A DNA stretch of 52,100 nt from an uncultured bacterium. Lineage in GTDB: Bacteria; Acidobacteriota; Thermoanaerobaculia; Thermoanaerobaculales; Thermoanaerobaculaceae. Position numbers and translations under genes: made by a program. How positions within the stretch are numbered: the first letter of the stretch is position 1; every line of letters starts with the position of its first letter. Under the pieces are notes generated by a model. It saw only the letters and a list, made by a program, of their open reading frames with translations, was not told the origin of the DNA and did no database searches. Positions 47,370-48,985 of this stretch are shown in pieces. The DNA is taken from contig CALEVZ010000062.1 of assembly GCA_937924755.1 (NCBI GenBank), positions 1 through 52,100 of the forward strand, written 5' to 3'.

Positions 47370-47636
47370 GCTCTGCGCAGCCGACCCGCCACGGCTCGGC
47401 CCGTCGCCTTTCTGTCCACCCCCCAGCGCGGCGTGCCTTGCCGCGCAAAAGACGGCGCCGTGGTCGCCTCGGCCCTGCTGCCGGCCCACCTCGGCACCTA
47501 CTCGCTGCCGCCGTGGGTACACGAGCGGGCGGCAGCTGCGCCGCTTCGCTGGCGCGTCGAGGCGTTGGACCTCGATGGCGAGCGGATGGCTGCCACCGAG
47601 TGGCGGGAGTTCACTCTCGCTCCCCCGCCGCAGTGA
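47349..47636 (+). CDS. Hypothetical 95-residue protein or gene remnant
   Basis: The frame has the GC-rich third positions of real genes from about codon 14 on. It ends with WRVEALDLDGERMAATEWRE, which resembles the closing strand of fibronectin-like or anti-sigma/FecR-type domains. There is no signal peptide, SD or zinc-finger start, and GTG 47349 lies inside the cytochrome promoter. I therefore favour the 3' remnant of a longer protein, or an artefact. It overlaps the end of the ygbA-like gene (26 bases, convergent). Confidence 0.35.
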   Translation: MTRDRRKALRSRPATARPVAFLSTPQRGVPCRAKDGAVVASALLPAHLGTYSLPPWVHERAAAAPLRWRVEALDLDGERMAATEWREFTLAPPPQ

Positions 47637-47982
47637 CTATCCCCGGGTTCGGCCGGGCGGCGCCGCGGCGGGCGGTGCGGCGGTCACGGCGCTCGTCCAG
47701 CAGATGCCGGATGGCCAGGTAGGGGTGCCGCCAGAGCATGCGGGGGCCGGCCCAGCGCATCACCTCCCGCATGCGCTGGCGTTCGGCGGCGCGGTAGCAG
47801 TGGATGGGACAGGCGGCGCAGGTGGGCTTGTCGGCCGCGAAGGGGCAGCGGTCCAGCCGGTAACTGGCGTACTGCAGGAGCGCCTGGCACTGCCGGCAGA
47901 GAGCCGGACCGCCGTGATGAGCCCGGCAATAAATCCGCACCATGGCGGCCACCGTGGCGCGCTCCCGCTCCAGCCGCTCCAT
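47611..47982 (-). CDS. ygbA: YgbA family (nitrous-oxide-stimulated promoter) protein
   Basis: This 123-residue cytoplasmic, cysteine-rich protein carries the PF11756-type pattern: AAMVRIYCRAHHG, LCRQCQALLQYASYRLDRC, KPTCAACPIHCYR and VMRWAGPRMLWRHP. At least seven Cys plus His residues suggest a metal or Fe-S site. In enterobacteria ygbA is controlled by NsrR and induced by nitric oxide; it has been linked to recovery from nitrosative stress. ATG 47982 lies six bases after a TAGAAT -10 and has no SD, and a symmetric TTGA-N6-TCAA site lies upstream. Confidence 0.9.
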   Translation of the reverse strand: MERLERERATVAAMVRIYCRAHHGGPALCRQCQALLQYASYRLDRCPFAADKPTCAACPIHCYRAAERQRMREVMRWAGPRMLWRHPYLAIRHLLDERRDRRTARRGAARPNPGIVTAAGERE

Positions 47983-47988
47983 GGTCCA

Positions 47989-48030
47989 ATTCTACCTCGG
48001 GCTTGCCATCACGGCCTTGACCGGCGTCAA
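47989..48030 (-). promoter_or_regulatory. FNR/CRP-family-type site at -41.5 of a leaderless promoter (ygbA-like gene)
   Basis: TTGACCGGCGTCAA (48017-48030) has half-sites TTGAC and GTCAA and fits the TTGA-N6-TCAA form bound by FNR/FixK/DNR-type activators. TAGAAT (47994-47989) is the -10. If transcription starts at the A of ATG 47982, the site centre (48023.5) lies at -41.5, the classical class II activation position. The -35 itself is poor, as expected for an activated promoter. Confidence 0.6.
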
Positions 48031-48040
48031 CTTCGGCACT

Positions 48041-48985
48041 TCAGGAGGCGGTGCGGAAGGAAAAGGAGGTCGGTCCCGCCGGCGCGTTGCCGGCCAGGTC
48101 GCGCACCGCCTCGGCGTTGAGGGTGACGTGGAAGGTTTCTCCGGCAGGCAGATCCCCCGCCGGCACCCAGGTCACCCACCAGCGATCGAAGTCGAGGCTC
48201 ACCACCCCCGGGATAAGTCCCGAGCTCTCCCCCAGCACCGTCACCGCGTCGGCCCGCAGGGAGCGAGGGGCGAGGGGCTCGGAGAAAGCGAACAGCACTC
48301 GTGGCCGCCTGGCCGCCACCACCGCCCGGGCGGCGGGAAAGTGGGAGGTGACCAGAGGTGGCTGGCGGTCCCGCACCTCCTGCCAGGCGGCCATCTGGGC
48401 CAAATCGAGGGAGACGTAGAAGGCCAGCTCCGCCAGCTCCGGCGGGGGCAGCGGGGGTTTGGGCAGGTCGTGTTCATCCAGATATTTGGCCAGCAGCACC
48501 GCGGCTGCTACCACGGTCACCACCCCGACCGCCACCAGCGCCGGCGGCACGTGGGAGAGCGTCACCCGCACATCGGTGATCATCCCCTCCTGCACCCGAA
48601 AAGTGCGCTGCGCCGGGCGGGCCAGGCGCTGCACGTGCCCCTCGTCGGTCAGGCGCGCCGGCACGCGCACCCGGTAGGTCCCGGGCGGCAGGCCCACCAC
48701 TGCCCAGCTGGCGTTCAAGGAGCGAAACACCGCTCGCCACGCCCTCCCCTCCTGACGCTCCAGTTCCCCCAGCACCCCGTGCGGCCCCACCGCCCCGGCG
48801 CGGCGCGCATTGTCGGAGGCGTAGACCTCCACCGCCACGCCACCCCCCGTACCGGCGCCGGGGCGGGGGGCGCCGGTCCTCACCGACACGCAACCACCTG
48901 CGATCAAAACCAGGTGCGCTCCCACCAGCGCCGCCGCTGCAACGCGCGCCGGGCCACCGCCTGCGCGCCAAGGCCGTCGCTTCAT
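48041..48985 (-). CDS. Lipoprotein with C-terminal Ig-like (Big_5) domain
   Basis: This 314-residue predicted lipoprotein has lipobox LIAGGC near residue 32. A beta-rich domain (about 50-145) contains VVGLPPGTYRVRVP, a carboxypeptidase-regulatory-like fold. A hydrophobic segment (ALVAVGVVTVVAAAVLLAKYL, about 150-170) follows. A C-terminal Ig-like domain reads RVLFAFSEPLAPRSLRADAV, then AEAVRDLAGNAPAGP, the usual SbsA/Big_5 pattern. Function is unknown; a structural or adhesive envelope role is likely. It starts at ATG 48985 from a leaderless-type promoter and has no SD. Confidence 0.82.
   Translation of the reverse strand: MKRRPWRAGGGPARVAAAALVGAHLVLIAGGCVSVRTGAPRPGAGTGGGVAVEVYASDNARRAGAVGPHGVLGELERQEGRAWRAVFRSLNASWAVVGLPPGTYRVRVPARLTDEGHVQRLARPAQRTFRVQEGMITDVRVTLSHVPPALVAVGVVTVVAAAVLLAKYLDEHDLPKPPLPPPELAELAFYVSLDLAQMAAWQEVRDRQPPLVTSHFPAARAVVAARRPRVLFAFSEPLAPRSLRADAVTVLGESSGLIPGVVSLDFDRWWVTWVPAGDLPAGETFHVTLNAEAVRDLAGNAPAGPTSFSFRTAS

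Follow-up and report, generated by a model that had tools for sequence, protein, structure and literature searches.

What controls ygbA in this genome? The window, by which we mean the whole 52,100-nucleotide stretch of Thermoanaerobaculaceae DNA analysed here, carries a copy of this gene, which in enterobacteria is a known target of NsrR (PMC2884951). A first-pass annotation of the window had noticed an FNR-family-type palindrome before ygbA and suggested that an FNR/DNR/HcpR-like activator replaces NsrR. Our analysis makes it highly probable, judging from sequence and its comparison, that the palindrome is the site of an NO-responsive CRP/FNR activator of the HcpR1/DNR kind, which would act in the class II manner on a leaderless ygbA belonging to a shared regulon.

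The ygbA box and the genes that share it

The gene lies on the minus strand at 47611..47982 and encodes a protein of 123 aa, residues 3-103 of which match YgbA_NO (PF11756) with an E-value of 1.6e-43 and 147.9 bits, against a curated cut-off of 25. Seven cysteines (19, 29, 32, 46, 55, 58 and 62) and two histidines (23 and 61) are invariant in 29/29 YgbA sequences and likely constitute a metal or Fe-S site. Reading along the gene strand, the box TTGACGCCGGTCAA (48030-48017; pattern TTGAC-N4-GTCAA, centre 48023.5) is followed after 22 nt by the -10-like TAGAAT (47994-47989), then by TGGACC and the ATG, whose A is at 47982. The centre of the box stands 41.5 bases before this A, exact to the base as the first reading of the sequence had it, and the -10 was correctly placed six bases before the ATG. 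If the A is taken as +1, TAGAAT spans -12 to -7, and the register of the -10 accordingly predicts transcription to start at the A of the start codon. Upstream, on the same strand, lies a lipoprotein-like gene with a Big_5 domain (48041..48985) whose stop codon comes 10 bp ahead of the box, so that ygbA has its own promoter. No sigma-70 -35/-10 pair was detected in 47500-48500; for this reason, and because it is separated from the -10 by 30 nt, the TTGAC half-site was rejected as a -35 element.

The ygbA box is not a chance occurrence. The exact pattern is present as a single copy in the window and is still the sole match when one mismatch is allowed, where the shuffled window gives a mean of 0.57 matches. 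Genome-wide (3.35 Mb), exact palindromes number 5, versus 1 for a reversed-pattern control, and one-mismatch palindromes 58 versus 20. Four of the five exact palindromes are intergenic; the fifth, on contig C57, lies inside a gene and was set aside as chance rather than a regulatory site.

The four intergenic boxes precede ygbA, a hemerythrin gene and two divergent pairs, FrdX-like ferredoxin/M14 peptidase and NapH-like polyferredoxin/flavin-reductase-like, and a one-mismatch box is found upstream of a DUF438-hemerythrin-PAS gene in the source genome. At the box of the second pair (contig C8), a -10 at 22 nt is present on the NapH-like side and none on the flavin-reductase side. For the hemerythrin box (contig C22) and the M14-peptidase side of the ferredoxin box (contig C28), the -10 is not exactly at 22 nt, and the membership of these two genes is uncertain. 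At locus L072 (7173-7221), where the ferredoxin box is shared with a divergent M14 peptidase gene, the ATG of the latter is likewise 41.5 bases from the centre, with TACAAT at a spacer of 23; bidirectional activation is possible there.

Among relatives, 14/21 ferredoxin orthologues have a perfect box directly upstream, as do two cupin-ferredoxin operons. A cupin gene precedes the ferredoxin gene in three loci of family f2 (L178, L185 and L187), and ygbA itself has a similar cupin-like frame before it in L107 (Bacteroidales). In genomes G005 and G008, a quinol NO reductase gene with a perfect box adjoins ygbA, and in G032, a perfect box precedes a DUF438-hemerythrin gene downstream of ygbA. One locus (L172, G002:C40:62928-64988) holds, in a row, a CRP/FNR gene, the box, an FrdX-like ferredoxin gene and a shorter, second copy of ygbA that overlaps the ferredoxin gene by 4 bp. 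The HcpR1-regulon motif, TTGAC-N4-GTCAA before an FrdX-type ferredoxin and redox genes, was found here, the ferredoxin being a putative FrdX. The first-pass annotation had advised looking for the box before hcp, nor or other NO genes: quinol NO reductase (G005 and G008) and other NO/redox genes do carry it, and hcp is absent.

A PF11756 search recovered ygbA in 29/100 genomes. For 28 ygbA genes, the preceding 160 bp were scanned, with dinucleotide shuffles providing the expectation. A perfect TTGAY-N4-RTCAA precedes 5/28 genes against 0.008 expected, all five in genomes of the order, and NTGAC-N4-GTCAN precedes 7/28 against 0.028; the box is therefore kept before ygbA in relatives, as the initial proposal required of orthologues. 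A small conserved membrane-protein gene often stands ahead of ygbA in families f5 and f14, making ygbA the second gene. In L017, L024, L027, L030 and L034, the box (mostly ATGAC-N4-GTCAT) precedes the membrane-protein gene, its distance from that gene being conserved; a degenerate form is readable also at L012 and L032. The membrane-protein gene, which is directly 5' of ygbA in all seven of these loci, starts approximately 35-37 nt past the ATGAC-N4-GTCAT-type box in most of them and farther away in L030; it is probably NO-related. A clear proximal box is absent at most ygbA genes of the sister family f2, despite a regulator that is 40-50% identical, a clear box is absent at both ygbA copies of genus g4, and the box is absent at 12 distant ygbA loci from other phyla.

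The candidate regulator

Searching the genome with a Crp-type HTH model gave three clear CRP/FNR genes, so that the regulator gene anticipated by the first-pass annotation is available. The candidate, on contig C28 (G000:C28:93921-94619), has the recognition helix TAPEVLSR with the matching core PEVLSR, placing Pro180, Glu181 and Arg185 at the CRP positions, and it is the only one of the three proteins that combines a non-Arg residue at 180 with Glu181. The other two carry Arg180; that of contig C53 is truncated (TSREVVSR), and that of contig C17 is CRP-like (RETVTR). In the HcpR1 branch, Ser/Pro180 together with Glu181 is linked to the motif wyTTGACnnnnGTCAArw (Rodionov et al., PMC1274295), and the C28 protein has these residues. 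In close orthologues of this protein (38-67% identity), CGT[AG]PEVLSR is kept in most members of the family and the order.

The distribution of the gene follows that of the box. An orthologue of the C28 gene is present in every genome of the family except those of genus g4, in which the regulator and the ygbA box are both missing. When matches were summed, the ratio of boxes to reversed controls was 53:14 for those genomes of the family that have the regulator and 4:5 in g4; in genus g22, where our search found no relative of the C28 regulator, it was 14:37. Regulator and box thus vary together, given the absence of both from g4 and the box excess of 53:14 against 14:37 in g22.

The alternative that survives best, although we consider it unlikely, is that the box is real and is bound by another CRP/FNR protein, such as that of C53 or C17. 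The recognition helices of both are intact as far as sequenced, and families f5, f11 and f14 have the box variant and lack a close C28 orthologue, which means that another CRP/FNR protein must act there; in f5 and f14, the box is kept under these circumstances. Against this reading, the Arg180 of the C53 and C17 proteins is associated with TGTGA half-sites and not with TTGA ones (PMC1274295), and covariation with the box within the family was seen for the C28 gene only.

It is improbable that ygbA is instead driven by an oxygen-responsive FNR, that is, by a general anaerobiosis regulator for which NO is not the signal. FNR does recognise the related TTGAT-N4-ATCAA, and the NapH-like and M14 peptidase members of the putative regulon are not NO-specific. 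However, the N-terminal Fe-S cysteine cluster of FNR is absent from the C28 sequence, whose three cysteines (168, 189 and 210) are all in the DNA-binding half, and the recurrent partners of the box are of the NO type, namely quinol NO reductase, hemerythrin and FrdX-like ferredoxin. In addition, the best PDB match of the C28 protein is DNR (E 2.7e-23, 86 bits), to which it is far nearer than to the solved FNR (1.8e-10).

We therefore return to the NO-responsive activator, for which the C28 gene product is the best candidate. Such a protein would sense a signal, most likely NO through a heme, and its dimer would bind TTGAC-N4-GTCAA at -41.5, recruiting RNA polymerase to a promoter that has no -35 (class II activation); the transcript would begin at the start codon, leading to leaderless translation of ygbA. 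The partners of ygbA in this predicted regulon would be the FrdX-like ferredoxin, the DUF438-hemerythrin protein and the NapH-like polyferredoxin, joined in relatives by quinol NO reductase.

The proposed replacement of NsrR agrees with our results for ygbA and fails as a statement beyond it. The genome encodes five Rrf2 proteins, among which no classic NsrR was found, the best scoring 46.8 bits against the NF008240 (NsrR) cut-off of 182. One of the five nevertheless heads an operon with hemerythrin and norB (quinol NO reductase) genes (L197, G000:C48:11079-14406), which has no CRP/FNR box, so an Rrf2-type NO regulator, an NsrR analogue, may still serve norB here. Prismane/Hcp is absent from the source genome (G000) and from 98/100 genomes searched, being found in 2/100. 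With no hcp gene for it to control in this genome, the C28 regulator cannot be classed as an HcpR on the strength of the target that defines that name. Its sequence suggests that it works like HcpR1/DNR, and it is a candidate, at most, for membership of HcpR1.

The -10 register and the start of ygbA

In an ungapped alignment of 29 box promoters (9 ygbA, 14 ferredoxin and 6 others), NAnnnT follows the box at exactly 22 nt in 23/29 and at 23 nt in three. Every other spacer between 14 and 33 gives it in 4/29 at most; among the six promoters of neither ygbA nor ferredoxin, a -10 at 22 is clear in only two. Because the boxes were chosen irrespective of the -10, the register speaks independently for class II activation. 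A box at -41.5 with a fixed -10 register, the arrangement of class II CRP/FNR promoters, is what we observe relative to the predicted transcript start, and the promoter geometry described by the first-pass annotation as self-consistent is repeated across this set.

The start codon of ygbA is 34 nt behind the box, at the predicted +1, in the window (L015) and in L010, L018 (GTG), L022 (GTG) and L025, and it is 35 nt behind, at +2, in L026 and L029. From this geometry, seen in five to seven orthologues, a conserved leaderless start can be inferred. Shine-Dalgarno-like leaders are present at the ferredoxin, NapH-like and DUF438 genes, which suggests that a leaderless start is peculiar to ygbA, with the operon form perhaps included.

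Transcription or translation might in truth begin elsewhere, leaving the box functional and ygbA not leaderless. The start in the window is a prediction, and the ygbA genes of L021 and L033 look leadered; we nevertheless regard this as improbable, given that the Pfam match already starts at residue 3 of YgbA and that start codons recur at +1 or +2 in the six other orthologues just named. Coincidence, or a role for the upstream gene such as that of a terminator, can practically be discarded as an explanation of the palindrome and of where it lies: the palindrome does begin just past the stop codon of that gene, but it has no T-tract, no terminator is predicted in 47500-48500, and five genomes of the order keep the box ahead of ygbA, at a fixed distance to the -10 and behind upstream genes unlike that of the window.

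YgbA among known nitric oxide regulons

The activator reading places ygbA, an enterobacterial NsrR target of unknown function, in a CRP/FNR-type NO regulon in this lineage. Most likely, ygbA is a new member of an HcpR1/DNR-type regulon, a kind already known. We lean, with some reserve, towards a broader interpretation in which an hcp-less NO regulon extends across the class, ygbA is controlled by a DNR/HcpR-like activator and not by NsrR, its mRNA has stayed leaderless because the class II promoter runs right up to the start codon, and YgbA has a core role in the repair of NO damage or in electron transfer. Such a core role is suggested by the tight link to FrdX-like ferredoxin and quinol NO reductase. 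YgbA gains genomic partners in these two and in hemerythrin, which makes its function testable, and the promoter set, with its strict -10 register and leaderless ygbA starts, offers a clean class II geometry that is predictable from sequence. In a literature search covering mostly freely accessible papers, we found no paper placing ygbA in a CRP/FNR-type NO regulon, and a search for HcpR with Acidobacteria returned nothing.

The closest known system is the HcpR1 regulon of Geobacter and Desulfuromonas, which has the same motif, wyTTGACnnnnGTCAArw, and the same residues, Ser/Pro 180 and Glu 181 (PMC1274295). HcpR also has like targets, including FrdX-type ferredoxin, hemerythrin and, in Synechocystis, norB, and it likewise has no FNR cysteine cluster (PMC1274295). 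It differs in that hcp is nearly absent in the class studied here and ygbA is not among the HcpR targets in PMC1274295. DNR of Pseudomonas aeruginosa (PDB 3dkw), the best solved-structure match by sequence, belongs to an NO-responsive class of activator, and its PETFSR shares the Pro-Glu-x-x-Ser-Arg pattern; the resemblance to the C28 regulator is distant (86 bits), the pseudomonad box is TTGAT-N4-ATCAA, with denitrification operons as targets. The NsrR regulon of enterobacteria likewise includes ygbA and other NO-stress genes (PMC2884951, PMC1274295). Unlike the arrangement in the window, however, it depends on a repressor of the Rrf2 family that recognises another operator, whereas the site before ygbA here is a CRP/FNR box placed where an activator would bind.
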